From NCBI RefSeq assembly GCF_000378965.1, contig NZ_KB900536.1:1666052-1730051 (forward strand): DNA of 64,000 nt. Reading direction: 5' to 3'. Shown here piece by piece: positions 3,935 through 23,363 of the stretch. This DNA is from Thioalkalivibrio thiocyanodenitrificans ARhD 1. GTDB lineage: Bacteria; Pseudomonadota; Gammaproteobacteria; Ectothiorhodospirales; Ectothiorhodospiraceae. The notes beneath the pieces were generated by a model. It did not search any database, was not told the DNA's origin, and saw only the letters and a list, made by a program, of their open reading frames with translations. Position numbers and translations under genes: made by a program. Position 1 is the stretch's first letter, and each line of letters opens with the position of its first letter.

Positions 3935-4450
3935 ATGCTGCGCATACTCCGCCAGATCACCCGCACCGGCACGCTCACGGAACCCGCGCCATCGACCGAC
4001 GATGCCGCCCTCGAAGCGGCCGGGATCGAGCTGCGCCGAACCCTGGAGGCCCGCTTTCGCGGCAGCCTGGCCATCCGCCAGGTGGATGCCGGTTCCTGCA
4101 ACGGCTGTGAACTGGAGATCCACGCGCTGGGCAATCCCTACTACGACCTGGAGCGCTTCGGCGTGCACTTCGTGGCCTCGCCGCGCCACGCCGACGTCCT
4201 GCTGGTCACCGGCCCCGTGTCCCGTCACATGGAGACCGCCCTGCGCCGTGCCTGGCGCGCCACGCCCTCCCCCAAGCGGGTGATCGCCGCCGGAGACTGC
4301 GCCTGCACCGGCGGCATCTTCGGCGAGTCCTACGCGAGCTGCGGCGCGGTGGAAAACGTCATCCCCGTGGACCTGCGCATCCCCGGCTGCCCGCCCGCCC
4401 CGCTGGAACTCCTGCGCGGCCTCCTGGCGCTGGCCGGGCGTGAGGCGTGA
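3935..4450 (+). CDS. NuoB/HycG-like [4Fe-4S] subunit of the Hyf-like complex
   Basis: A 171-aa protein starting at the ATG at 3935, 10 bp after the large-subunit stop and preceded by GGGAGG. The iron-sulfur ligands are visible: GSCNGCE (C55, C58), GDCACTGG (C122 or C124) and IPGCPPAP (C152), as in HyfI/HycG/NuoB. It would carry the terminal cluster that passes electrons to or from the large subunit. The proximal-cluster ligands are intact although the large-subunit nickel ligands are not, so electron transfer is probably retained. The last codons (R-E-A-stop) are encoded by the first units of the GTGAGGC array, which looks like a C-terminus rewritten by repeat insertion or expansion. Confidence 0.88.
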   Translation: MLRILRQITRTGTLTEPAPSTDDAALEAAGIELRRTLEARFRGSLAIRQVDAGSCNGCELEIHALGNPYYDLERFGVHFVASPRHADVLLVTGPVSRHMETALRRAWRATPSPKRVIAAGDCACTGGIFGESYASCGAVENVIPVDLRIPGCPPAPLELLRGLLALAGREA

Positions 4451-4502
4451 GGCGTGAGGCGTGAGGCGTGAGGCGTGAGGCGTGAGGCGTGAGGCGTGAG
4501 GC
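4440..4502 (+). repeat. GTGAGGC heptamer array, 9 perfect units, overlapping a stop codon
   Basis: Nine perfect tandem copies of the 7-mer GTGAGGC. The TGA stop of the preceding Fe-S subunit (4448-4450) lies inside the second unit. Because 7 is not a multiple of 3, the TGA in each unit occurs in all three + strand frames. The same unit recurs at 41568, 45796 and 58597, always on the same strand as the upstream gene. Confidence 0.97.
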
Positions 4503-4731
4503 AAGGGAGCATAGCGCCTGATTGGCGAAGGAAACGGGCGCGCGAATCCCGAAGGCGGTTTCGTCCCGGAGAAGAACAGCATCAAGCGCATTGACCACAG
4601 GTGACCGCATCGGGCGGTGTCCACCCGATCAGCCTGCATGTCTCACCCCCCGTTCAGTTCCGGTTCATCGGACAGGCTCATGCTGAACACATCCTGCGGC
4701 GACCCATGCAAGCCGAGCCGATGTGAAAGCC

Positions 4732-5067: not shown

Positions 5068-5204
5068 GGCGCCCCCGGAGCAGTACAAGAGCAACCAGCC
5101 GACCGCCAGGGTACGCTTCCCCGCCCGTCTCCCCGCCCCTCCGGCCATCCCGCCGATCTGTGATACCTTTCTCACCGAAGGGAGATCAGGGCGCCGGGAC
5201 AGAA

Positions 5205-5543
5205 ATGACACCACAACCGGAACAAGACGCACGCAGGGAGATCGACCGGCTGCTCACCGCTGCCGGCTGGGCCGTGCAGGACGCCGACCAGGCCAGCATC
5301 CACGCCGCCCGGGGCGTGGCCATCCGCGAGTTCCCGCTGCCCGGCCACGGCTTCGCCGATTACCTGCTCTACATCGACGGCCAGGCCGCCGGGGTCATCG
5401 AGGCCAAGAGGGCAGGCACGACTCTGAGCGGCGTCGAGATCCAGGCCGAGCGCTACACCAAAGGCCTCGCCTCCCCTGAGACATCTAAATCTTCCTTCAC
5501 CTCCGGATTTCTCCTCGTGCGGCCGGGAGTGATTCCATGCTGA
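5205..5543 (+). pseudogene. Type I restriction enzyme R subunit, N-terminal remnant
   Basis: From the ATG at 5205 the first ~85 codons match the start of type I HsdR proteins. They contain the PD-(D/E)XK nuclease core: FADYLLYIDGQAAGVIEAKR (catalytic D, E and K) followed by GVEIQAERYTKGL. Homology ends near base 5466; the frame then runs through unrelated codons to a stop at 5543. HsdR proteins are roughly 800-1,000 aa, so the helicase and C-terminal parts are gone. The remnant overlaps the start of the helicase gene at 5537 by 7 bp. Deletion or replacement of a type I R-M locus by the following gene is the simplest explanation. Confidence 0.75.
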
Positions 5544-7921
5544 TCTATACCGCCAACAAGGACCAGTTCATCCGGGACGTTCTGCGCAACGAGATCGACG
5601 ATCGCATACTGGCCAACATGCGGGCTCGCGGCCTGGGCGGCGTATCTCCAGCAGAACTCGCCGCATGGCGAAACTCCATGCAGTTCATGAAGAATATTCT
5701 CGACGTCCGGGACGTGCCGGACGATGCGGGGGTGGCCATCGAGTACGTCATTCCGCAAACAGGAAAGCGAATCGACTTCATACTGACCGGGCAGACCACC
5801 GAGGGTCAGGACACGGCCCTCATCGTGGAACTCAAGCAGTGGGAGACCGTTGAGGAAACCCAAAAGGACGGAATCGTAAGGACCTTCCTCGGAGGCAGCC
5901 GAAGGGAGGTGCCACACCCCTCCTATCAGGCCTGGACCTACGCGGCACTCTTGAATGACTTCAACGAGGCGGTAGAGGTCCATCGTATCAACCTGAAAGC
6001 CTGCGCATATCTTCATAACTGCGTCTCGGATGCAGTGAATTCGGACTTCTACCAAGACCACCTCGAGCGCGCCCCGGCCTTCCTGAAGAAGGACGCGGAG
6101 AGATTGCGAAGCTTCATCCGTCATCATGTTAGAAAAGGCGACCACAACCGCATCATCTACACCATCGAGAACGGGCGGATCCGACCTTCGAAGTCCCTTG
6201 CGGATCATCTGGCTTCCCTGCTCAAGGGGGCTCGAGAGTTCCTGATGATCGACGACCAGAAGCTGGTATATGAGAGCGCGCTGGAAGTCGCCGCAATCGG
6301 CCAGTCAGGACGAAAGCAGGTCCTGATCGTGGAAGGGGGACCCGGAACAGGGAAATCCGTCGTGGCGATCAATTTGCTCGTGGAACTGATCCAAAGAGGG
6401 CTAATTGCCCATTACGTCACCAGGAACGCCGCGCCGCGGGCTGTCTATGAGACCAAACTCACAGGACATTTTCGGCGCAGCCACATCGGCAACCTCTTCA
6501 AGGGTTCAGGTGCCTACCACGACGCACCAGCCAATTCCCTTGACGTACTGATCGTCGACGAGGCACACCGGCTCAATGAGCGTTCTGGGATGTTTCAGAA
6601 CCTCGGAATAAACCAGGTCATGGAGATCATCCGGTCATCAAAGACAAGCATCTTCTTCCTCGACGAGGATCAAAGGGTTACCTGGAAAGACATCGGCTCA
6701 CGACAGGAGATCGAGCACTGGGCCCGCTCCGAGGACGCCACCGTACATCGGGCGGTGCTCCGCTCGCAGTTCCGCTGCAATGGTTCAGACGGTTATCTCG
6801 CATGGCTGGATCAGGTGCTGCAAATCCGTGACACAGCCAACCCGGATCTCAACGACCTGGGCTATGCGGTGGAGGTCGTCGACTCCCCCACCGAGTTGCA
6901 CGACCGCATCCGCTCCCTGAACAAGTCACCCAATCGAGCCCGCCTCGTGGCGGGATACTGCTGGGACTGGATCAGCAAGAAGGATCCGAAAAGGCTCGAT
7001 ATCCAATTCCCGGAACACCGCTTCGCAATGCGCTGGAATCTGGACAAGGATGGCCCCCTCTGGATCATGCAACCGAACTCCGTCAATGAGATCGGCTGCA
7101 TTCACACATGCCAGGGTCTGGAACTCGACTACGTGGGTGTCATCGTCGGACCAGACCTGGTCGCAAGGAACGGTCGGCTGATTTCGCAGCCTAAGGAGCG
7201 ATCCCGCATGGATTATTCCATCAAGGGATATAAGACTGCGCGGAAGAAGAACGCTATCGAGGCGGACGCCAAGGCAACGGCAATCATCAAGAACACTTAC
7301 CGCACACTCATGAGCCGGGGCACGAAGGGCTGTCTGATCTGGAGCTGCGACGCGGAAACCAACGAGTACTTCAAGGACCTGCTGAAACGACCTGACCAGC
7401 CGCCGATCAACTTGCAGCAGGAAGCGGCCAACATCCCCTTTCGGATCGTTCCTGAGGGCGAAGTACAGCCGTTCGTCAACGCTGTGCCGCTTTTCGACTT
7501 CCATGCCGCCGCTGGCGACTTCAGCGAACATCAGAGCGTCTCAGACTGGCAGTGGGTTGAGTTGCCGGGCTATATCTCCCCGTCCCCCGGGATGTTCGTG
7601 CTGCAGGTAATAGGGGAATCCATGAACCGGCGCGTGCCGCATGGCTCATGGTGCCTTTTTGAAGCGCCGCACGGAGGCACCCGACAGGGCAAAACCGTCC
7701 TGGTACAGCATCGCGACATCCAGGACCCCGACACCGGAGCGACCTTCACCATAAAGCGTTATGAGAGCAGCAAGCATTCTGACCCCGACACCGAATGGCA
7801 GCACAACCAGATCATCCTGCATCCCGACTCATACGACGCGGGCTATCAACCGATTGTGCTCAAAGGCGATTCCGTCAATGAGCTCCGGGTAGTTGGAGTT
7901 CTTAAGGCGGTGTTGCAATAG
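5537..7921 (+). CDS. DUF2075 helicase with N-terminal nuclease-like domain and C-terminal LexA-like S24 peptidase domain
   Basis: A 794-aa multidomain protein. Residues ~60-105 show a PD-(D/E)XK-like core (RID80F ... IVE98LK100QW). Residues ~230-610 form a DUF2075/Schlafen-type helicase with Walker A GGPGTGKS (267-274), Walker B VLIVDEAH and HTCQGLELDYVGVIVGPD. Residues ~645-794 resemble LexA/UmuD: an Ala-Gly dipeptide in FHAAAGDFS (A659-G660), a serine in VIGESM (S695) and a lysine in TIKRY (K740), in the order and near-spacing used for LexA autocleavage. I infer a nucleic-acid-acting defence protein regulated by self-cleavage. It lies between restriction-modification remnants and beside other nuclease-domain genes. 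Function is untested. Confidence 0.85.
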   Translation: MLIYTANKDQFIRDVLRNEIDDRILANMRARGLGGVSPAELAAWRNSMQFMKNILDVRDVPDDAGVAIEYVIPQTGKRIDFILTGQTTEGQDTALIVELKQWETVEETQKDGIVRTFLGGSRREVPHPSYQAWTYAALLNDFNEAVEVHRINLKACAYLHNCVSDAVNSDFYQDHLERAPAFLKKDAERLRSFIRHHVRKGDHNRIIYTIENGRIRPSKSLADHLASLLKGAREFLMIDDQKLVYESALEVAAIGQSGRKQVLIVEGGPGTGKSVVAINLLVELIQRGLIAHYVTRNAAPRAVYETKLTGHFRRSHIGNLFKGSGAYHDAPANSLDVLIVDEAHRLNERSGMFQNLGINQVMEIIRSSKTSIFFLDEDQRVTWKDIGSRQEIEHWARSEDATVHRAVLRSQFRCNGSDGYLAWLDQVLQIRDTANPDLNDLGYAVEVVDSPTELHDRIRSLNKSPNRARLVAGYCWDWISKKDPKRLDIQFPEHRFAMRWNLDKDGPLWIMQPNSVNEIGCIHTCQGLELDYVGVIVGPDLVARNGRLISQPKERSRMDYSIKGYKTARKKNAIEADAKATAIIKNTYRTLMSRGTKGCLIWSCDAETNEYFKDLLKRPDQPPINLQQEAANIPFRIVPEGEVQPFVNAVPLFDFHAAAGDFSEHQSVSDWQWVELPGYISPSPGMFVLQVIGESMNRRVPHGSWCLFEAPHGGTRQGKTVLVQHRDIQDPDTGATFTIKRYESSKHSDPDTEWQHNQIILHPDSYDAGYQPIVLKGDSVNELRVVGVLKAVLQ

Positions 7922-8185: not shown

Positions 8186-8263
8186 GTCGGGCTTCAGCCC
8201 GACGCTCTGGCGGCGGATCGAGCTCCGGTTATCGGCCTGAATGAATCGCCAGGAGCGATTCAT
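8186..8263. repeat. Pair of REP-like hairpins after the HsdM remnant
   Basis: Two short perfect palindromes: GTCGGGCT-tc-AGCCCGAC at 8186-8203, immediately after the TAG stop, and ATGAATCGC-cagga-GCGATTCAT at 8241-8263. They resemble the short palindromic repeats scattered through gammaproteobacterial intergenic DNA. They could act as mRNA 3' ends, but no T-tract follows. Confidence 0.7.
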
Positions 8264-8360
8264 CGCGCAAACCCCAAGGGGGAGGCGCATGGACGCGCCG
8301 AACAAGACCGACCTGCGGACAATGCGACTCCGACAGTGGAATGCCAAAAGGGATGTCAAG

Positions 8361-9149
8361 ATGACTACACCTACAAAATCACCTATTACGGACAAACCTC
8401 TGCGCGTACCCGGGCAGTCGCTTGAAGAGGAACAAAGAAAGCTGTACGAAGACAAGCTCGAGACTCCGTTACTGCTTGCCTCGTGCTTCCTCATGTTCGC
8501 GGGCATGGAATGGCTGCGCTATTACGTGGGGTTTCCCCCACGTCCAATTCTCTTCACGTCTGTCGCCCTTCTGCTAATTGCTTTCTTTGTATGGCGACTA
8601 CTCCGACTACTTCCACAGTATCGTGCCCTGAGGCAGGGCGTCGAGGGGGAGCGAGCCGTCGGACAGTTCCTGGAGAGGTTACGGGAGAAGGGATACCACG
8701 TCTTCCATGATCTGATCGGCAGCGGCTTCAACGTAGACCATGTGCTGATCGGTCCTGCCGGAATCTTCACGGTCGAAACCAAGACCAGGAGCAAGCCGCT
8801 TCGGGGCGAGCCGCTGATCAAGTTCGATGGAAACCAGCTCACCATCATGGGCCGGGAACCCGACCGCAATCCCATCGTTCAAGCTCGCGCGCAGGCAGCC
8901 TGGCTCAAAAGCCTGCTGGTTGAAAGCACCGGGCGTCCTTTGAATGTCTTTCCGGTAGTGGTTTATCCCGGATGGTTCATCGAGCAGAGCGCGGGCAGCC
9001 TACGCAGCATCTGGGTCCTTGAACCGAAGGCCCTGCCGAAGTTTCTCGAGAATGAGCCCAACCGCCTGACACCGGAAGACGTGAGGCTCGCCAGCTATCA
9101 TCTATCCCGCTTTATCCGGGCCAATGAACGCGATCGCAGCGCACGATGA
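8361..9149 (+). CDS. NERD-domain (nuclease-related) membrane protein
   Basis: I chose the ATG at 8361 (262 aa), preceded by AAAAGGGA; the frame is open further upstream but that part crosses the hairpins. Two hydrophobic helices near residues 30-80 are followed by a NERD domain: GVEGERAVGQFLERL, then FNVDHVLIGPAGIFTVETKT. The latter holds the D-(I/V)ETKT nuclease-like residues shared with restriction-endonuclease folds. NERD proteins are common in mobile DNA and defence regions, but their reaction is poorly known. The neighbours (helicase-nuclease upstream, HTH-GIY-YIG downstream) support an accessory role. Confidence 0.85.
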   Translation: MTTPTKSPITDKPLRVPGQSLEEEQRKLYEDKLETPLLLASCFLMFAGMEWLRYYVGFPPRPILFTSVALLLIAFFVWRLLRLLPQYRALRQGVEGERAVGQFLERLREKGYHVFHDLIGSGFNVDHVLIGPAGIFTVETKTRSKPLRGEPLIKFDGNQLTIMGREPDRNPIVQARAQAAWLKSLLVESTGRPLNVFPVVVYPGWFIEQSAGSLRSIWVLEPKALPKFLENEPNRLTPEDVRLASYHLSRFIRANERDRSAR

Positions 9150-9242
9150 TGGGGTGGCATCAATGACCCCCGTTCACTGCGATCTACAGCTCCGGCCGTC
9201 CCATTCTTGGTGCAACGATTGTCTAGAGAGCGTGGAGGATCC

Positions 9243-9941
9243 ATGAAGGCCGACGCATTGATCTCAGAGCTGAAGAGGAAGTTCTCCATTTCAACAGACA
9301 GGGAATTGGCCTCGCGGCTCGGCATGACGGCCATCCAGATCGGCAACTGGAAGCGCAGAAAGAAGGCATTGACACCAAGACAAGTGGCCAATGCCATAGA
9401 AAAGGCCTCCCATGCGGCGGTAACCAAGGCGCATCGGAGCATGATCCGCCCCATCGTCGAGTTCTTTCCTCTAGATGCGACGGAATCAAGAGCTGGCGTA
9501 AAGTATGAACTCTTTCCGACAACGGTGGATGGGAAGCCTTCCTACCAGCAACTTCGTAATGCTCTGGCCGACGCCAACGGGATCTACATCTTCTACGATA
9601 CCCGTGGACGGGCGATTTATGCGGGAAAGGCGAAACAGCAGTCTCTATGGCGAGAGATGAAGAGCGCGTTCAATCGCGCCCGCGACACTCAGACCGTCTA
9701 TCGAGTAAGACACCCCACCTCCGGGAGGAAGTTCGTTGCCGCACATGAGAAACCTCGCCAACCTCTCAGAACCCAGCTCAAGTTGAACGACCTTGCGGCC
9801 TATGTAAGCGCGTACGAGGTCGACCCTGGAATGATCAATGACCTTGAGGCACTGCTTGTAAGGGGCTTCGCGAACGACCTCCTCAACGCCAGGATGGAGC
9901 GGTTCGCCGGGTCACGACCGAGGAAGAAGGGGGGCGCGTAG
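9243..9941 (+). CDS. HTH/GIY-YIG nuclease fusion protein
   Basis: Start ATG at 9243 with GGAGG 5 bp upstream; 232 aa. Residues ~1-60 look like a CI-repressor-type helix-turn-helix (TDRELASRLGMTAIQIGNWK). Residues ~108-220 form a GIY-YIG nuclease-like domain: GIY at 113-115, YAG at 126-128, an arginine near 137, E202 in NDLEALLVR and a late asparagine in NDLLN. The combination suggests a DNA-binding, self-regulated nuclease. It is separated from the upstream NERD gene by ~90 bp. The TAG stop (9939-9941) is part of the left arm of the following inverted repeat. Confidence 0.75.
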   Translation: MKADALISELKRKFSISTDRELASRLGMTAIQIGNWKRRKKALTPRQVANAIEKASHAAVTKAHRSMIRPIVEFFPLDATESRAGVKYELFPTTVDGKPSYQQLRNALADANGIYIFYDTRGRAIYAGKAKQQSLWREMKSAFNRARDTQTVYRVRHPTSGRKFVAAHEKPRQPLRTQLKLNDLAAYVSAYEVDPGMINDLEALLVRGFANDLLNARMERFAGSRPRKKGGA

Positions 9942-10020
9942 GTTGGGGTGAGCATCGCGAACCCCAACAGAAAATTCACTTTACGCGTATTGGGGTTCAC
10001 ATAACTCACCCCAACCTACG
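9937..10020. repeat. Nested inverted repeat sharing the stop codon of the GIY-YIG gene
   Basis: Perfect 16-bp arms CGTAGGTTGGGGTGAG (9937-9952) and its complement (10005-10020) enclose a second perfect pair, GAACCCCAA (9959-9967) and TTGGGGTTC (9990-9998). The TAG stop of the upstream gene lies inside the left arm. Similar TAGGTTGGGGTGAG-type elements are scattered in many proteobacteria. It could fold into a long cruciform or an mRNA hairpin. Confidence 0.95.
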
Positions 10021-10456
10021 TTCACTGACAACCTCTCCGCCCGGGAGCACATGAGCTTCCCCCAATAAAACGGACGGTTTAATTGCTCGCGTATCGTGCT
10101 TCGTATTCTACCGGCGCCAGGTAGCGTAACGAAGCATGCCGTCGTTGCCGGTTGTAGAACACCTCGATGTACTCAAAGAGGCTTTGCTTGGCTTCTGCCC
10201 GGGTCTTGTAGTCCTCGTGGTGCACCAGTTCGTTCTTCAGGGAACCGAAGAAGCTTTCGGCCACCGCGTTGTCGAGGCACTCGCCCTTGCGGCTCATGCT
10301 GCAGCGCAGGCCGTTCTCGCGTAACTGCTGCCGGTACGTCGTCGAGGCATAGGTGCTGCCCTGATCGGAGTGGACGATGAGGTTGTCGACCTTTTTTCGA
10401 CGCCACTGAACCGCCCCGGGTATCGCGGAGGCTCCAACTCTTGAGAGAATGGAGCC

Positions 10457-10780
10457 ATGAACAAGTCAAACAAGTTTTCACCTGAGGTCCGTGAGCGGGC
10501 GGTGCGGATGGTCCAGGAGCACCGTGGGGAGTACCCGTCGCTGTGGGCGGTTGTGGAGTCGATAGCCCCAAAGATCGGCTGCGTGCCACAGACGCTGCTG
10601 GAGTGGGTCAGGCGAGCGGAGATTGATGCGGGTGCGCGGCCAGGCATGACCACGGCCGAGACGCAGCGCATCAAGGACCTGGAGCGCGAGAACAAGGAGT
10701 TACGGCGCGCCAATGAGATCCTGCGTACCGCCAGCGCTTTTTTCGCGCAGGCGGAGCTCGACCGCAAACTGAAGTCGTAA
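10457..10780 (+). CDS. IS3-family transposase orfA (inner element)
   Basis: 107 aa from the ATG at 10457 with GGAGCC upstream. HTH of the IS3 type ([13 protein letters not shown] ... [16 protein letters not shown]) followed by a leucine-zipper helix ([22 protein letters not shown]). The C-terminus [11 protein letters not shown] overlaps the region where a -1 ribosomal frameshift would join it to orfB. Confidence 0.95.
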
Positions 10781-10833
10781 ACGCCTACATCGATCAGCAC
10801 CGGGACGCCTATGGGGTCGAGCCGATCTGCAAA

Positions 10834-11685
10834 GTGTTGCAGGTTGCCCCATCGGCCTACCGGCGCCATGCGGCCCGGCGGCGCAATCCGGATCTGCGCA
10901 GTGCCCGGGCCAAGCGCGATGAGCGGCTGGTTCCACACATTGAGCGTGTCTGGGAGGCCAACCTCCAGGTCTACGGCGCCGACAAGGTCTGGAAGCAACT
11001 CAACCGCGAAGGTGTTTCCGTGGCGCGCTGTAGCGTGGAGCGGCTCATGCGCCGCCTGGGCTTGCAGGGGGCACGCCGTGGCAAGACGGTTCGCACCACC
11101 GTGGCGGACCGATCGGCGCCATGTCCGTTGGATCGGGTTAATCGGCAGTTCCAGGCCGAGCGCCCCAACCAGCTCTGGGTGTCGGACTTCACCTACGTTT
11201 CGACCTGGCAGGGATGGCTGTACGTGGCCTTCGTTGTCGACGTCTTCGCACGGCGCATCGTGGGATGGCGCGTCAGCTGCACCATGACCACGGACTTCGT
11301 GCTCGATGCCCTGGAGCAGGCGCTCTACGCTCGGCAGCCCGAGCATAACGATGCCCTGATCCATCACTCCGACCGCGGGTCGCAATACGTCAGCATTCGC
11401 TACACGGAGCGACTTTCCGAAGCCGGTATCGAGCCGTCGGTCGGCAGCCGTGGCGACAGCTACGACAATGCCTTGGCCGAGACCATCAACGGCCTGTACA
11501 AGGCGGAACTGATCCATCGCCGCGGCCCCTGGAGGTCCAGGGAGTCGGTGGAGCTGGCGACGCTGGAATGGGTGTCCTGGTTCAATCATCAGAGGTTGAT
11601 GGAGCCCTTGGGGTATATTCCGCCGGTGGAAGCTGAGGCAAACTACTATCGGCAACTCGCCAGTCAGGCCGTAATGGCGGCTTGA
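10834..11685 (+). CDS. IS3-family transposase orfB (inner element)
   Basis: 283 aa from the GTG at 10834; the frame stays open back to about 10771 ([19 protein letters not shown]), where it would be entered by frameshifting from orfA. The rve integrase core is complete: QLWVSDFTYVSTWQGWLYVA (first Asp), HHSDRGSQYVS (second Asp) and DSYDNALAETINGLYKAE (catalytic Glu). No frameshift or stop is seen, consistent with a recently inserted copy. Confidence 0.95.
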   Translation: MLQVAPSAYRRHAARRRNPDLRSARAKRDERLVPHIERVWEANLQVYGADKVWKQLNREGVSVARCSVERLMRRLGLQGARRGKTVRTTVADRSAPCPLDRVNRQFQAERPNQLWVSDFTYVSTWQGWLYVAFVVDVFARRIVGWRVSCTMTTDFVLDALEQALYARQPEHNDALIHHSDRGSQYVSIRYTERLSEAGIEPSVGSRGDSYDNALAETINGLYKAELIHRRGPWRSRESVELATLEWVSWFNHQRLMEPLGYIPPVEAEANYYRQLASQAVMAA

Positions 11686-12260
11686 CTTAAACCAACCAGC
11701 CTCCGCAATTCCCGGGGCGGTTCACCACAGCGCCATAGTCAGGGCCTGCTGCACCAGTTCGGTATCGTTGCGGTTGCCCATGGCCCAGCCGATCACCTGA
11801 CGGGAGAAGAGGTCCAGGAGCACGGCGAGGTAGAGCCAGCCCTCGCGGGTGGGGATGAAGGTGGTATCAGAAACCCAGGCAGTGTCCGGCTGGTCGACGG
11901 TAAATCGTCGCTGTAGCAGATCGGGTGCGGGCTGCAGGGTGTTCTTCGAATCCGTGGTGATGACGAACTTGCGGGCCATCCGGGACTTGATGTCCGCCGC
12001 CTTCATCAGGCGAGCCACCCGGTTAACACCACAGGCCGCGCCTTCGGCGACCAGGTCTTTGTGGATCTTCGGCGAGCCGTAGTTTTGCCGGGAACGTTGA
12101 TGATAGTAGGCGATCTTCGCGGTGAGTCGTTTGCTTTCCTGGGTCCGCGGGCTCTCGGGCCGATCCAGCCAGTCGTGGTACCCGCTACGGGAGACCCCCA
12201 GTACCGCGCACAGCCGTGAGAAGGTGTGTTGATGACGGTGTTCCCGGATGAAGGCGTACT

Positions 12261-12569
12261 TCACTTGGACTCCCGAGCAAAGTACGCCGCGGCTTTTTTT
12301 AGGATTTCATTCTCCTCCTTGAGCCGCTTGTTCTCCTGGCGAAGCGTGGCCATCTCGCTCTGGCCTTCTTTCCTGGGCCGGCCCCGTTTGCTTGAAGCCA
12401 CCTTGCCTTTCTGACTCATCTGTTCCTTCCATTTGTAGAGCTGGTTGCGTCGGATGCCGAGCTGCCGGGCTACTTCACTGGCCGGCCTGTCGGATTCCTC
12501 CAGCAAGCGCAGGGCTTCGAGCTTAAAGGCTTCGGGATAGGTTTTATAGGGCTTGCGTTTGACGGTCAT
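12261..12569 (-). CDS. IS3-family transposase orfA (outer element)
   Basis: 102 aa on the minus strand, with an N-terminal helix-turn-helix (YPEAFKLEALRLLEESDRPA ... ARQLGIRRNQLYKWK) and a C-terminal leucine-zipper-like helix (LRQENKRLKEENEILKKAAA). This is the standard orfA organisation. It overlaps orfB by 4 bp. Intact itself, but its partner orfB is interrupted. Confidence 0.93.
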   Translation of the reverse strand: MTVKRKPYKTYPEAFKLEALRLLEESDRPASEVARQLGIRRNQLYKWKEQMSQKGKVASSKRGRPRKEGQSEMATLRQENKRLKEENEILKKAAAYFARESK

Positions 12570-12733
12570 GGGACACTCCTTGGGGAGACGCTCGTCTCCG
12601 ATTAAAAGTGTCCGCTAAACTGGGGGAGGTTCAACATGACCCAAGACGAAGATGTGGATCAGGGAGGAGGGCTGGAGAGATGTCGAAGGATTGCTCGAGG
12701 TCTGACCTTCGGAAATGCTTGGGAGGCATGATT

Positions 12734-13687
12734 ATGGCTACGGAACTGGGACGCTTGGAGAAAGTCGACCTTCGCGAAGTCTGGAGGACTGAGGGTAGTG
12801 ACTTCACGCCCTGGCTGGCTCAGGAGCAGAACATCACCCTTCTGGGAGAGACCATCGGCATCGACCTGGAAGTGGAAGCTCAGGAGAAGAATGTCGGGCC
12901 ATTCCGGGCCGACATTCTCTGCAAGGACACCCTCACAGAAAACTGGGTCTTGATTGAGAATCAACTTGAGCGCACCGACCACTCACATCTCGGACAGCTC
13001 CTGACATACGCAGCCGGGCTGAACGCTGTGACGATCGTCTGGATTGCCGAGCGATTCACAGACGAACATCGGGCAGCGCTGGATTGGCTGAACGAGATTA
13101 CAGACGGTCGATTCAATTTCTTTGGGCTCGAGGTGGAGTTATGGCGCATCGGCGATTCACCCCTGGCCCCGAAATTCAATATCGCCTCTAAGCCAAACGA
13201 CTGGACCAATACAGTTGGCCGAGCGACTGCACAGCTTCAGACCGATGACCTGAGTGACACAAAGCAATTGCAGCTAGAGTACTGGACAGCGTTCCGTGAT
13301 TTTGTGTCCGGGCAGCGGACCACTCTTCGTTCACAGAAACCCTCGCCCCAGCATTGGACGAGTTTCGCGATTGGCAGATCCCATTTTCACTTATCAGCGC
13401 TCACAAATACTTCAGAAAAGAAGATCACGGTTAACCTAGTGCTTTCAGGCCCCAATGCCGGGCCGCACTTTCAGGCGCTTTTTGCGCAACGCGAAGCAGT
13501 CGAAGCAGATATGGGTTGTTCTCTGGATTGGCGTGAAAATCCAGGAAAGAAACAGTGCGGAATCAGACGTCAATCGGACTTTGACCCTGCTGATCGCAGT
13601 TCGTGGTCCGTTCAACACAAGTGGCTTCTCGATACACTTGAACAATTCACGAAGGTGTTTGGGGACCGCATCAAGGCAATCGGATGA
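12734..13687 (+). CDS. DUF4268 domain protein with PD-(D/E)XK-like N-terminal domain
   Basis: I chose the ATG at 12734 (317 aa), 7 bp after GGGAGG; an in-frame ATG at 12728 is too close to that site. Residues ~55-100 show a nuclease-like core: FRADILCKDTLTENWVLIEN, QLERTDHSHLGQLLTYAAGL. The E-x-Q in place of E-x-K is usual for this family. The C-terminal half (~210-310) matches DUF4268, a domain of accessory restriction-like proteins. It lies directly after the right end of the nested IS and may have been part of the same defence cluster before the insertions. Function is not established. Confidence 0.75.
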   Translation: MATELGRLEKVDLREVWRTEGSDFTPWLAQEQNITLLGETIGIDLEVEAQEKNVGPFRADILCKDTLTENWVLIENQLERTDHSHLGQLLTYAAGLNAVTIVWIAERFTDEHRAALDWLNEITDGRFNFFGLEVELWRIGDSPLAPKFNIASKPNDWTNTVGRATAQLQTDDLSDTKQLQLEYWTAFRDFVSGQRTTLRSQKPSPQHWTSFAIGRSHFHLSALTNTSEKKITVNLVLSGPNAGPHFQALFAQREAVEADMGCSLDWRENPGKKQCGIRRQSDFDPADRSSWSVQHKWLLDTLEQFTKVFGDRIKAIG

Positions 13688-13814
13688 GGCGTGTAAGACC
13701 TTGGAATCAGGCCTTGGCTTTTGGCCACCTGCACATGGGACCGTACGGGGGTCGGGGTCAGGTCTCGCATGGCAACAGCCCCACCGGGCCGGCTATGTCG
13801 CGCGCGGCGCACCC

Positions 13815-14942
13815 TCATTCATCCCCGGCCCCCTTGAACCGGAGGCCTTCCTTCAACGCGTTCAACTGTGTGGCATATGGCATGAGACCATCATGCTGCA
13901 ACCGACCCACTACGATGCCGGGATGAACGCCGATCTTCCGGGCAAACGCATTGATGGCCGCCCTACTGGACAAACTGGGCAGATCAGGGGCGTATTCAGG
14001 AGGGATCAGCCAATCCCCGGCCCATACATTGGCCTCGTGCTCGGCGGGATCGTCCGCATGCCCGTCGTTGGGATCGTCCAGAAATACGGACTTCTTTGCT
14101 TCCCTGGTGGATGCGTGCAGGAGGATGTGCGCCGCTTCATGGAAGAAGGTGAACCAGAACCTGTCGTTGGTCTTGCCGTAGAGGGATAGCTGGATCAGTG
14201 GGCGGGTCGGGGCCAGCCAGCGGGCCACACCACTGACATGGGCCCGCGGAATAGCCGGGACGAGCACGAACGCCACTCCGGCCTCCTGCAACAGCGTACG
14301 CATGCGAGGCTCAAATACCTCGGGGGGCTCGCAAGTCAGCTCCCGGATACTCACGAGCGCCTTCTGGAACCTGGACTTGTCGTAACGGGGGCCGTCAAGG
14401 ACTGCCGCCTGCTCCTCCCCCATACGCAGCCAGGCCGAGATGGCGCCGACATCACTTTGTTCCGTGCGGCTTCGCCGGTATGACACATGCATTCCCGCAT
14501 AGATATCGCGCCACTCTTCCGGCGTGGCTACACCGAAGAAGCGAAGACAGGCTTCCACAATGCCGGGTTTGTTCCTGGCATCGACGCGGCGCTTCGGGAT
14601 AGCCCCGGCCGACATCATCTCCTTGACCGGCAGCTCCTCCAGCCACTCCACCCAGCCGGCATGGGACCGTGCGGCCTCCAGGCGGGCGCAATGCTCCCGG
14701 TACTTGGCCTCCCGAGCGAGCCAGAAACCAGCGTTGCCACCGAGCACCCGCTCAAGGCGCATAGCGGCATCCTCACTTAATGGGACCTTGCCCTTGATGA
14801 GCTGGTTGACGTGCTTTGGGCTGTAGCCCAGACGGGCGGACAGTTCGGATTGGGTCCAGCCCCGCTCATCAAGGAGGTCGACGATGGTCTCGCCAGGGGG
14901 GGAGACCCAGTCTGGCGCAAAGGGAGCGCTTGCCTCAGTCAT
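13815..14942 (-). CDS. higA: HigA-type antitoxin fused to an ImmA/IrrE metallopeptidase domain
   Basis: Start ATG at 14942 (375 aa), overlapping the toxin stop by 8 bp. Residues ~10-85 are an XRE helix-turn-helix (GWTQSELSARLGYSPKHVNQLIKG). The C-terminal half has the zinc peptidase motif FTFFHEAAHILLH (HExxH) with a downstream glutamate in AEHEANVWAGDWLIP. HigA-ImmA/IrrE fusions form type II toxin-antitoxin modules whose peptidase domain may help turn over the repressor. Transcribed with the upstream toxin; autoregulation through the palindrome at 15288-15306 is likely. Confidence 0.88.
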   Translation of the reverse strand: MTEASAPFAPDWVSPPGETIVDLLDERGWTQSELSARLGYSPKHVNQLIKGKVPLSEDAAMRLERVLGGNAGFWLAREAKYREHCARLEAARSHAGWVEWLEELPVKEMMSAGAIPKRRVDARNKPGIVEACLRFFGVATPEEWRDIYAGMHVSYRRSRTEQSDVGAISAWLRMGEEQAAVLDGPRYDKSRFQKALVSIRELTCEPPEVFEPRMRTLLQEAGVAFVLVPAIPRAHVSGVARWLAPTRPLIQLSLYGKTNDRFWFTFFHEAAHILLHASTREAKKSVFLDDPNDGHADDPAEHEANVWAGDWLIPPEYAPDLPSLSSRAAINAFARKIGVHPGIVVGRLQHDGLMPYATQLNALKEGLRFKGAGDE

Positions 14943-15264
14943 GATAGTCTCCGATGAATTCGATACAGATGATGGTGACCCGTGACCAATCGATGCCACC
15001 GGCGATATTTTGTGGGCAAGGATTGTGGGCTGGGCGAAACACCAACCGGGATCCTCCGTCCAGATTCAGGGCGAACTGCCCCTTCCTGTCTCCCTTGAGC
15101 GGATGCGGATTGCCCGCAACCAGGTCCGTGACGGCGGCAGCGGCTTCGAGGTCAGCGAGCCTTGCCCGAAGCTTTCGCGCGCAGACCGCCCCGAGCTTCT
15201 TCTCAGCGACGGCCCGCTTTTCACACAAGTCCCGAATCCTCTTGTCCTTGAAGAGGATCTCCAA
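14935..15264 (-). CDS. higB: HigB/RelE-type toxin
   Basis: 109 aa starting at a TTG (15264) preceded by AGGAG at good spacing; there is no ATG alternative upstream. The sequence has the RelE/HigB mRNA-interferase pattern: an N-terminal charged helix, ARLADLEAAAAVTDL, then HPLKGDRKGQFALNLDGGSRL and a C-terminal IICIEFIGDYHD. These toxins cut mRNA on the ribosome. Toxin-before-antitoxin order is typical of hig modules. The weak TTG start may keep toxin levels low. Confidence 0.85.
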   Translation of the reverse strand: MEILFKDKRIRDLCEKRAVAEKKLGAVCARKLRARLADLEAAAAVTDLVAGNPHPLKGDRKGQFALNLDGGSRLVFRPAHNPCPQNIAGGIDWSRVTIICIEFIGDYHD

Positions 15265-15287
15265 AAGCGTCTCCTGATTTTACAAAA

Positions 15288-15306
15288 ATTTACCAAACAG
15301 GTAAAT
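15288..15306. promoter_or_regulatory. Probable operator of the higBA operon
   Basis: Perfect palindrome ATTTACC-aaaca-GGTAAAT, 24-42 bp upstream of the higB start codon in AT-rich DNA. Position and symmetry fit a HigA/HTH binding site that overlaps the promoter. No footprint evidence; inferred from position. Confidence 0.65.
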
Positions 15307-15569
15307 ATTTAATGTCCTGTGGCGCATACTACCTCATCACCATCGTTTCACGAAAGGGCCTTGGGGAGACCGGAGACCGGAGACCGGGGTCGGACAGCGG
15401 TCGCAGAAAGTCGCAGAAAGTGGACATCCATCATCTTTAGCGCCCAGGACGCAGACACTGAGGGGAGCAACTCTCACGGCAAAGAACCAAACCCCTAGGA
15501 AAATCCGGACAAGAATAATTCGCAATATGTGGCGATATAATGCATCATATAGGCATTATCTCGTCACAA
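15307..15569. other. Divergent TA intergenic region with short tandem repeats
   Basis: Between higB (leftward) and hipB (rightward). It holds three tandem copies of GGAGACC (15365-15385), a short duplicated GTCGCAGAAA stretch near 15410, and an AT-rich palindromic segment ATAATGC ... GCATTAT around 15537-15559 just before hipB. That last segment is a plausible hip promoter/operator. No gene was found here. Confidence 0.6.
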
Positions 15570-15950
15570 ATGGCGACCATGAAACTCGACGAAAAGCTCA
15601 CAGACGACGCGGTGCTGGCAGAGCTGGGCGAACGGCTGGCCCGGCTGCGTATCGGGCGCGGGCTCACCCAGGCGCAACTGGCCGATGAGGCCGGGGTGGG
15701 CAAGCGTACGGTGGAGCGGGCGGAAGCGGGTCACTCCGTGCAGCTGGTGACCCTGGTGCGGCTGTTCCGGGTGCTGGGCCTGATGAGCGCCCTGGATCAC
15801 CTCATGCCGGAGCCGGGGCCGACGCCCATGGAACTGCTCAAGGAAAAGACCACGGGCCGCGGCCGCCAGCGCGCATCCGGCCGCCGCCCCCCCTCCGCCC
15901 CCAGGACACGCACCGGCGGCAAGGCATGGACATGGGGTGACGAATCGTGA
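15570..15950 (+). CDS. hipB: HipB-type antitoxin / XRE regulator
   Basis: 126 aa from the ATG at 15570; ATGs at 15540 and 15579 are also in frame. Residues ~18-75 form an XRE helix-turn-helix (RGLTQAQLADEAGVGKRTVE). The tail is basic and Pro/Arg-rich (TTGRGRQRASGRRPPSAPR), longer than in E. coli HipB. It ends with GTGA, its stop overlapping the HipA start, so the two are co-translated. HipB neutralises HipA and represses the operon; the AT-rich palindrome just upstream may be its operator. Confidence 0.88.
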   Translation: MATMKLDEKLTDDAVLAELGERLARLRIGRGLTQAQLADEAGVGKRTVERAEAGHSVQLVTLVRLFRVLGLMSALDHLMPEPGPTPMELLKEKTTGRGRQRASGRRPPSAPRTRTGGKAWTWGDES

Positions 15951-17263
15951 CGTCGGTGGCCGAAGTGAAACTCTGGGGCAGCACCATCGGCGCCATCGCC
16001 CTGGAAGACGGCGCCGAGGTGGCCAGTTTCGAGTACGACCCGGACTTCGCCCGAAGCGGCATCGAGATCGCCCCGCTGACCATGCCGCTCGCCCCGGGCG
16101 TGTACCGCTTCCCCGCCCTGGCGCGGGAGACCTTCCACGGTCTGCCCGGCCTGCTGTCGGATTCGCTGCCCGACAAGTTCGGCAATGCCCTGATCGACGC
16201 CTGGCTGGCCACCCAGGGCAGAACCCCCGATTCCTTCAATTCCGTGGAACGTCTCTGCTACACCGGCAGGCGTGGCATGGGTGCGTTGGAGTTCGAGCCG
16301 GTGACAGGCCCGAAAGCGCGGGGGGCGCAGAAGATCCAGGTGGATCAACTGGTGGCGCTGGCCTCGGACATCCTCACCCACCGCAGCGAACTGGCCACCC
16401 GTTTCGGCGACGAGATGCACAACGGCGACGCCCTGCAGCAGATCCTGCAGGTGGGCACCTCTGCCGGCGGCGCGCGGGCCAAGGCGGTGATCGCCTGGAA
16501 CCCGGAAACCAACGAGGTACGCTCCGGGCAGGTGGACGCGGGCGAGGGGTTCGGCTACTGGCTGCTCAAGTTCGACGGCGTGAGCGGTAACAAGGACAAG
16601 GAGCTTGAAGACCCCAAAGGCTACGGCGTGATCGAGTACGCCTACTCCCTCATGGCGCGCGATGCCGGCATCACCATGAACGAATGCCGCCTGCTGGAGG
16701 AGAACGGCCGCCGGCATTTCATGACAAAGCGCTTCGACCGGCTGGACGGGGGCGAGAAGCTGCACATGCAGTCCTTCGGGGCACTGGCGCATTTCGACTA
16801 CAACATGGCCGGTGCCTACAGCTACGAACAGGCCTTCCAGGTCATCCGGCAATTGCGCCTGCCCATGCGCGACGTGGAGCAGCAGTTTCGCCGCATGGTG
16901 TTCAACATCGTGGCCCGCAACCAGGACGACCACGTGAAGAATATCGCCTTCCTGATGGACCGGACCGGGCGCTGGTCCCTCTCGCCGGCCTTTGACGTGA
17001 CCTACAGCTACCAGCCCGGCGGGCGCTGGACCTCCACCCACCAGATGAGCCTCAACGGCAAGCGCGACGGTTTCGTGCCGGCGGACTTCACCGCCTGCGC
17101 CGAGGTGGCCGGCCTGAAACGGGGCCGCGCCGAAGCGATCCTCAACGAAATACAGCGCATCGTGGCACGCTGGCCCGAGTATGCCGACGAGGCGGGGCTC
17201 GACCCGGACCACCGCGACCGGATCCGCGGCGCCCTGCGCCTGCCGGCGGACAGGTCGGGATGA
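15947..17263 (+). CDS. hipA: HipA-family serine/threonine kinase toxin
   Basis: 438 aa from a GTG at 15947. The HipA fold is clear: an N-terminal subdomain with GLPGLLSDSLPDKFGN, the nucleotide loop GTSAGGARAK (170-179), the catalytic NQDDHVKN (325-332) and a DFG-like FDVTY (349-353). HipA toxins phosphorylate aminoacyl-tRNA synthetases (GltX in E. coli) and induce dormancy. All core motifs are intact, so it is probably functional. Translationally coupled to the HipB gene. Confidence 0.93.
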   Translation: MTSVAEVKLWGSTIGAIALEDGAEVASFEYDPDFARSGIEIAPLTMPLAPGVYRFPALARETFHGLPGLLSDSLPDKFGNALIDAWLATQGRTPDSFNSVERLCYTGRRGMGALEFEPVTGPKARGAQKIQVDQLVALASDILTHRSELATRFGDEMHNGDALQQILQVGTSAGGARAKAVIAWNPETNEVRSGQVDAGEGFGYWLLKFDGVSGNKDKELEDPKGYGVIEYAYSLMARDAGITMNECRLLEENGRRHFMTKRFDRLDGGEKLHMQSFGALAHFDYNMAGAYSYEQAFQVIRQLRLPMRDVEQQFRRMVFNIVARNQDDHVKNIAFLMDRTGRWSLSPAFDVTYSYQPGGRWTSTHQMSLNGKRDGFVPADFTACAEVAGLKRGRAEAILNEIQRIVARWPEYADEAGLDPDHRDRIRGALRLPADRSG

Positions 17264-22997: not shown

Positions 22998-23363
22998 ATG
23001 GACAATGCACTGCACGATCTCAACGAGCGCCTGCGTGAATTCGCCCGGGCCCGGGACTGGGAGCAGTTTCACTCCCCCAAGAATATGGCCATGGCACTCA
23101 TCGGCGAGGCAGGCGAACTCATCGAGCACTTCCAGTGGCTCACCGAAGAGCAGAGCTACCGGCTGCCGCCGGACAAGCTGGAGGAGGTGCGCCTCGAGAT
23201 GGCGGATATCTTCATCTACCTGATTCGCCTCTCCGATCGCCTCGGTGTCGATCTCATGGCCGCCGTGGAGGACAAGATCGCCCTCAACGAAGCCAAGTAC
23301 CCGGCCGACCGGGTGCGGGGCAGTTCGAAGAAGTACAACGAGTATCAGGGGAGTGAGGGGTGA
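22998..23363 (+). CDS. MazG-like nucleotide pyrophosphohydrolase
   Basis: 121 aa with GGGAGC upstream. It contains the all-alpha NTP pyrophosphatase signature: GEAGELIEHFQW (ExxE) and LEMADIFIYLIRL (ExxD), which bind magnesium. Size and the N-terminal FARARDWEQFHSPKN resemble the dCTPase/RS21-C6 subgroup that removes non-canonical nucleotides. Its stop codon lies inside a degenerate heptad-repeat tract (GAGTGAGGGGTGAGG), so the last few residues (QGSEG) may derive from repeat sequence. Confidence 0.9.
   Translation: MDNALHDLNERLREFARARDWEQFHSPKNMAMALIGEAGELIEHFQWLTEEQSYRLPPDKLEEVRLEMADIFIYLIRLSDRLGVDLMAAVEDKIALNEAKYPADRVRGSSKKYNEYQGSEG

Follow-up and report, generated by a model that had tools for sequence, protein, structure and literature searches.

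A candidate nuclease-helicase of Thioalkalivibrio thiocyanodenitrificans bears a portable LexA-type tail found on several restriction-type proteins: a possible self-cleavage off-switch

Results

The gene considered here lies in a stretch of 64,000 nucleotides from Thioalkalivibrio thiocyanodenitrificans ARhD 1 (contig NZ_KB900536.1, positions 1,666,052 to 1,730,051 of the forward strand), which we call the window. It encodes a protein of 794 amino acids in which a nuclease-type N-terminus, a superfamily 1 (SF1) helicase and a C-terminal domain of the LexA type (peptidase S24) follow one another in a single intact open reading frame (ORF). The features, in window coordinates and with the basis of each assignment, are as follows.

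5537..7921, plus strand: coding sequence (CDS) with nuclease-type N-terminus, SF1 helicase and LexA-type S24 tail; intact ORF
5537..6271, plus strand: PD-(D/E)XK-type candidate nuclease, residues 1-245; invariant residues and secondary structure
6314..7351, plus strand: SLFN-g3/DUF2075 SF1 helicase, residues 260-605; PF09848 match
7382..7471, plus strand: variable linker, residues 616-645; predicted local distance difference test score (pLDDT) below 50 at 618-632, ratio of nonsynonymous to synonymous substitution (dN/dS) 0.35
7472..7918, plus strand: S24 LexA-type tail, residues 646-794; profile, fold and conserved residues
7511..7516, plus strand: predicted scissile bond A659-G660; aligned with LexA A84-G85 and UmuD C24-G25
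7619..7621, plus strand: predicted nucleophile S695; alignment and conservation
7754..7756, plus strand: predicted general base K740; alignment and conservation
5525..5529, plus strand: likely ribosome-binding site GGGAG, ending seven bases ahead of the CDS ATG
5160..5543, plus strand: HsdR N-terminal remnant (127-residue ORF); HSDR_N 25.6 bits against a cut-off of 25.1

According to our analysis, alignment, residue conservation and predicted structure strongly support the C-terminal domain as a cleavage module of the LexA/UmuD type. The S24 family of Pfam scores 18.8 bits on the whole protein, under its cut-off of 23.3, and 23.9 bits, over it, on the tail domain alone; the family matches at E <= 0.01 in 37 of 37 aligned domains, the one from the window included, with a best value of 8.7e-13. 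The initial annotation had read Ala659-Gly660, Ser695 and Lys740 as an arrangement like that of LexA and UmuD, and these residues indeed align one for one with A84, G85, S119 and K156 of LexA and with C24, G25, S60 and K97 of UmuD (both of E. coli, from the K-12 record). A PDB sequence profile search with the tail returned LexA only (E 0.05-0.09). The comparison of folds leads the same way: with a separate predicted model of residues 634-794 (pLDDT 78.5, predicted template modelling score (pTM) 0.75), the first 33 PDB rows of Foldseek were all LexA, CI or UmuD, several of them bound to the RecA filament, and VIA-align gave LexA 3k2z a Z of 11.9 (root-mean-square deviation 3.0, 123 aligned residues), with signal peptidases at Z <= 5.9. 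The protein is nevertheless not LexA or UmuD proper, as a nuclease-helicase precedes the tail and there is neither a repressor helix-turn-helix (HTH) nor a small stand-alone pol V subunit; the LexA of the same genome scores just 2e-4 with the tail profile.

The DUF2075 helicase with intact Walker motifs, also proposed at the outset, is confirmed by a PF09848 match at residues 260-605 (Pfam, E 2.1e-99), with Walker A at 267-274 and Walker B at D341-E342. A full-length predicted model (pLDDT 82.6, pTM 0.71) places helicases among the early Foldseek rows, including DSH9, RecD2, SLFN11, Dna2 and RecD; the RNase core of the AlbA_2-type Schlafens gave no Pfam match at E <= 1 in the protein. Residues 1-245 are judged from their letters and predicted elements as a candidate nuclease of the PD-(D/E)XK type. 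D80, E98-x-K100 and Q131-xxx-Y135 do not vary over 49 aligned rows, a pattern which we take to be the D...(D/E)xK plus QxxxY motif of RecB/Cas4-like nucleases, and the order of predicted strands and helices fits the PD-(D/E)XK core. No convincing match of this part to any Pfam family model or PDB sequence was obtained, the PDB sequence profile search yielding a single chance-like match (E 1.3), so that the PD-(D/E)XK-like core claimed earlier stays a candidate, read from its motif and element order.

One might suspect such a fusion of being produced by annotation or assembly, or of being a passenger in decay, since the HSDR_N piece upstream is a remnant and transposase genes are nearby. The end of the ORF of this remnant shares 7 bases with the start of the 794-residue CDS. 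The gene had been described as lying between restriction-modification remnants, which is true in so far as this one HSDR_N fragment stands directly upstream. We find the artefact or passenger explanation hardly credible, as it is contradicted by conservation. Thioalkalivibrio denitrificans possesses a full-length copy 92% identical to the window protein (also preceded by a similar short ORF), comparison of the two gives a dN/dS of 0.15 for the whole protein and 0.21 for the S24 tail, and the tail recurs widely among relatives.

A genome scan gave 119 relatives, of which the best 80 were considered; its patterns came from a tailed query, so that tailed relatives were favoured. Fifty-seven of these 80 carry the tail, 55 as full-length tailed proteins, one with the tail behind a stop (L066) and one running off its contig inside the tail (L049). 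A further 21 stop cleanly at 617-648 amino acids without a tail, one is cut by a contig end (L067) and one is broken (L074). Across the window protein and the 55 full-length ones, S695 is found in 56 of 56, K740 in 55, and G660 and A658 in 54 each; A659 is kept in 50, with Cys in 4 more, as in UmuD. In a tree built from the nuclease-helicase portion (61 rows, with L067 excluded for its contig end and near-copies and broken rows left out), the tail has to be gained or lost 8 times, and at least 6 of these changes fall on well-supported branches. No separate S24 partner was detected with the tail profile in the available flanks of the tail-free relatives; the only match outside a main gene is at L066, where a stop interrupts the main gene before the tail.

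The tail is not confined to this family. We surveyed genome samples with a tail-only profile (E <= 1e-8) built from the PD-helicase tails. The positive genome on which a sample was centred is counted in it, and the class sampled second belongs to the phylum sampled first. In the window's phylum 5 of 299 genomes had a match, and in its class, a sample that overlaps the first, 9 of 369; around genomes of tailed relatives the counts were 12 of 296 in the phylum of L051 (Bacteroidota), 5 of 247 in that of L018 (Geobacter) and 10 of 194 in that of L015 (Verrucomicrobia). The five samples gave 41 distinct tails, 35 of which are C-terminal on DNA-cutting or restriction-type proteins: 12 PD-(D/E)XK-type helicases, 9 GIY-YIG-PF09848 helicases (six scanned with Pfam, where GIY-YIG was over cut-off in three, under it in two and absent in one, the rest being assigned by likeness), 5 PLD-helicases (four scanned, DUF3427 in three), 4 HsdR, 3 HNH proteins, 1 HsdS and 1 ResIII protein (type III-like). 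One more, of 1,211 amino acids (L129, 4549-8181, plus strand), is weakly assigned, with ResIII at 20.1 bits against a cut-off of 22.5; its genome also encodes an intact tailed helicase. Five tails have no carrier class: two stand at contig ends, a third lies next to a broken HsdR-like gene, a fourth follows in-frame directly after the stop of a ResIII ORF, and the last is a fragment without Ser. Among the 36 classified carriers there is no repressor or UmuD-type protein. The S24 tail of this type is thus a portable one, placed C-terminally on several unrelated restriction-type proteins.

Two arrangements met in the survey may be mentioned here. At L152 (1579-4740, plus strand) an SF2 helicase ORF is followed by a stop and then by an intact in-frame S24 tail, for which a split gene, readthrough and a sequence error are the alternatives. 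At L158 (4501-10619, minus strand) two S24-tailed proteins adjoin, one a PD-helicase and the other a methyltransferase-HNH protein.

For comparison of the cleavage machinery we took 91 tails, 56 of the genome scan (window included) and 35 of the surveys, near-copies being included and L090 and L091 left out. The [A/C]-G site, Ser and Lys are all kept in 85 of the 91. Positions P3-P1' read IAAG in 35, AAAG in 21, VAAG in 13, FAAG in 6, LAAG and TAAG in one each and xACG in 8; three tails are unaligned at the site (L102, L151 and the HNH tail of L158, where AAG is visible by eye). At P2, 85 of the 88 tails with an aligned site have Ala, like VAA|G of LexA and unlike VQC|G of UmuD. In a tree of the tails, from which 11 near-identical Halomonas tails, L102 and L151 had been dropped, LexA and UmuD form one side (97/87), with few columns and a long-branch warning from the tool. 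Next to them, with weak support (78/64), stands one divergent tail, that of the HNH protein of L158. Tails of different carriers are interleaved: four from PD-helicases of Bacteroidota and Omnitrophota group with those of HsdR, HsdS, Res and PLD proteins (90/89).

As for a phage origin, likewise rejected, the tail profile found no tailed relative in viral_contigs, and four phage records match the 794-residue protein, none of them across the tail. A plasmid origin was also considered and rejected: of 25 plasmid records matching the protein one covers the tail, a Halomonas replicon of 1.8 Mb, which was also the only plasmid match in a search with two tails alone.

The tailed relatives sit in a defence setting, as supported by their neighbours. 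In 20 tailed loci, 110 neighbour genes (a random choice from 128) matched 136 PADLOC models at E <= 1e-15, and 109 control genes of the same 20 genomes (a random choice from 177, one protein of 2.6 thousand amino acids having been removed) matched 9. We read this contrast as a direction and not as a rate, because several models, many of them redundant, count per gene, and because the restriction-modification partners that HsdR and HsdS carriers bring with them inflate the test side; gene calls were longest ORFs, and two of the loci (L123 and L124) are near-copies. Septu, Thoeris, type I, type IIG, AbiEi and SoFic are among the 25 neighbour models listed of the 136.

A second neighbour deserves separate treatment. 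A MazG-like gene adjoins 68 of the 80 relatives, that is 48 of 56 tailed loci (L066 included, where it is 723 bases off) and 20 of the 24 others; it belongs to PF12643 in 4 of 4 scanned. It likewise adjoins 9 of 9 GIY-YIG-helicase loci (in one as two ORFs) and 9 of 12 PD-helicase loci of the survey. In the available flanks of other carriers there was no match to the MazG profile except at L158, where the HNH carrier follows a PD-helicase with its MazG-like gene. Since the gene adjoins PF09848 members and not other carriers, it goes with the helicase and not with the tail. The nuclease-helicases so accompanied (relatives L002-L081 and L088-L127) have N-termini of PD-(D/E)XK or GIY-YIG type, and helicase and MazG-like gene together have the look of a two-gene unit conserved between phyla, whether or not an S24 tail is present. 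The window has one such gene:

22998..23363, plus strand: MazG-like pyrophosphohydrolase; sole match to its own sequence in the genome, 15 kb from the CDS

At this distance it was rejected as a partner of the CDS and no two-gene unit is claimed here; in the 5.5 kb ahead of the T. denitrificans copy and the 8 kb behind it no MazG-like gene was found.

Behind the helicase gene the two Thioalkalivibrio genomes part. A HipA-like stretch (window 15422-17258) has 94% DNA identity at the T. denitrificans locus (L002), where it follows the helicase gene after a few hundred bases, and consequently the approximately 7 kb at 8202-15422, with transposase genes and defence candidates, are specific to the window in this comparison. 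This segment contains a NERD-domain protein (8241-9149, plus strand) downstream of the 794-residue CDS, an unusual pairing of an HTH-like start (YdaS, under cut-off) with a weak UvrC/GIY-YIG-like stretch (9207-9941, plus strand), and, with transposase genes near, a DUF4268 protein (12608-13687, plus strand) that matches the PADLOC candidate PDC-S11 at 428 bits. On the other side, around 4420-4510 on the minus strand, short repeats whose translation repeats RLTPHAS stand beside hydrogenase-type genes.

Discussion

From the analysis above we propose, with confidence just short of even, that the 794-residue protein is a defence-type nuclease-helicase with a portable LexA-type S24 tail which would serve as a damage-triggered self-cleavage off-switch. 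Damage to the cell's own DNA would give rise to a RecA filament on single-stranded DNA, which may induce the Ser-Lys dyad of the tail to cut the tail's own A659-G660 bond. The cut would free a nuclease-helicase of 659 residues. Its end, '-AAA' here and '-IAA' or '-VAA' in many relatives, resembles that of the cleaved LexA fragment, which is a substrate of ClpXP by virtue of its '-AA' end. ClpXP would then probably clear the '-AA'-ended fragment, and the outcome would be a restriction alleviation encoded in cis, in which a dangerous DNA cutter is removed while the host repairs unprotected DNA. The tail domain with its fold and conserved residues, its spread over several restriction-type proteins and the defence setting are what the analysis shows; self-cleavage, stimulation by RecA, degradation and the direction of the switch are inferred from these.

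What inclines us to the off direction is the '-AA' end together with carriers that would endanger unmodified host DNA after damage, the presence of the tail on an HsdS (one case), which cuts nothing, and the established alleviation of type I enzymes by proteolysis upon damage (PMC12707154). The changes of P1 from Ala to Cys recreate the Cys-Gly of UmuD, and Cys-Gly is named as a known alternative cleavage site in PMC8565304.

The opposite direction should be weighed as well. The tail might keep the nuclease-helicase inactive, and cleavage triggered through RecA by phage or damage might release an abortive-infection effector. The same anatomy and the same conservation of residues would fit, the neighbours are defence genes, and release of a programme by cleavage is known from prophage repressors. 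We take such an on-switch to be unlikely: the 21 tail-free relatives with a clean stop indicate that the enzyme can be tolerated without a tail to inhibit it, the HsdS carrier, being no nuclease, is hard to fit with activation of a nuclease, and four carriers are HsdR, whose activation upon damage would attack unmodified host DNA.

Several observations count against the off-switch itself. The abundance of tail-free relatives means that a switch is dispensable, and the '-AA' end may merely reflect substrate fit. In both models pLDDT is below 50 at the scissile bond or just behind it (659-667 in that of the tail), so the models do not support its docking at the dyad. Degenerate tails persist, with site and Lys lost in L019, the site lost in L052, Ser lost in the L102 fragment, and in L129 no scissile bond, Ser changed to Ala and Lys to Arg.

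The survival of L129, L019 and L052 with broken machinery would agree with a tail that acts uncut, docking the enzyme on RecA filaments or dimerising, with cleavage rare or a relic. LexA-type domains do bind RecA filaments, as in PDB structures among our Foldseek rows, and LexA-type domains dimerise. Binding or dimerisation requires neither a scissile bond nor a dyad, and yet site, Ser and Lys are retained together in nearly all of the compared tails, those on divergent carriers included, which makes an uncut tail, in our opinion, distinctly improbable.

Two further points against the off-switch concern RecA and SOS control. IrvR is reported to be a LexA-like protein outside the RecA paradigm (PMC7101444). 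The LexA box (CTGT-N8-ACAG) is not enriched ahead of the tailed genes, being perfect in 0 of 53 tailed loci and within one mismatch in 5 of 53, against 22% of shuffles; this consensus is proteobacterial, and other phyla are not properly covered by the scan. For the window gene LexA-box control was rejected, its best score within the 500-700 bases upstream having two mismatches; E. coli lexA and umuD, the positive controls, gave zero. It would be logical to ask, then, whether a self-cleavage switch could have a trigger other than RecA, such as redox state, a phage protein or stalled translocation. IrvR offers a reported exception and the missing LexA box agrees with it, though a box is relevant to transcription rather than to cleavage. 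The closest folds include RecA-bound LexA, CI and UmuD, a resemblance only, and we consider a non-RecA trigger very unlikely.

Coming back to the RecA-induced off-switch, a wider suggestion can be made, more tentatively than for the window protein. The mobile LexA-type tail on many unrelated restriction and defence enzymes may constitute a general, cis-acting form of restriction alleviation, where a self-removal triggered by the RecA filament would expose a latent degron and take the enzyme away. How a host is protected from its own DNA-cutting defences after damage is understood for few type I systems only, and a shared self-cleaving tail, if true, would give several enzyme families a direct link between the SOS machinery and immunity. 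If the switch is real, mutants of S695 (S695A) or of A659-G660 are predicted to be toxic under damage, or else defence-dead; if its direction is opposite, the protein would be a suicide nuclease armed by RecA, which would be equally new.

Parts of this picture are already in print, namely S24 self-cleavage (PMC8565304), type I alleviation (PMC4231737) and MazG as a predicted defence domain (PMC13092281). In the open-licence literature, by title and abstract start, we found no description of restriction enzymes or DUF2075 helicases that end in an S24 tail. DefensePredictor lists MazG as an unvalidated predicted defence domain, and, unlike the present account, its main text contains no mention of S24, LexA, DUF2075, Schlafen or helicase (PMC13092281).

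Among known systems, the tail resembles LexA, UmuD and CI of peptidase S24 in its fold, in its Ala-Gly (in some Cys-Gly) site, in its Ser-Lys dyad and in its C-terminal position, and it differs from them in that its classified carriers are DNA-cutting or restriction-type proteins and not repressors or a polymerase subunit. With the SLFN-g3/DUF2075 helicases of PF09848 the window protein shares the helicase core, to which it adds a candidate PD-(D/E)XK N-terminus and the S24 tail. A partial likeness was returned by PADLOC, which gave no cut-off, to PDC-S41 (56 bits, residues 19-288), AbiO (41 bits, 236-415) and Nhi (38 bits, 252-415); these matches are low in score, cover part of the chain and do not reach the S24 tail. 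A functional parallel is type I restriction alleviation, which proceeds by ClpXP removal of HsdR, the EcoKI degron not having been identified, according to PMC4231737. In both cases a translocating nuclease would be removed when host DNA is at risk, and, unlike type I alleviation, where the protease acts in trans, the switch proposed here would belong to the enzyme itself.

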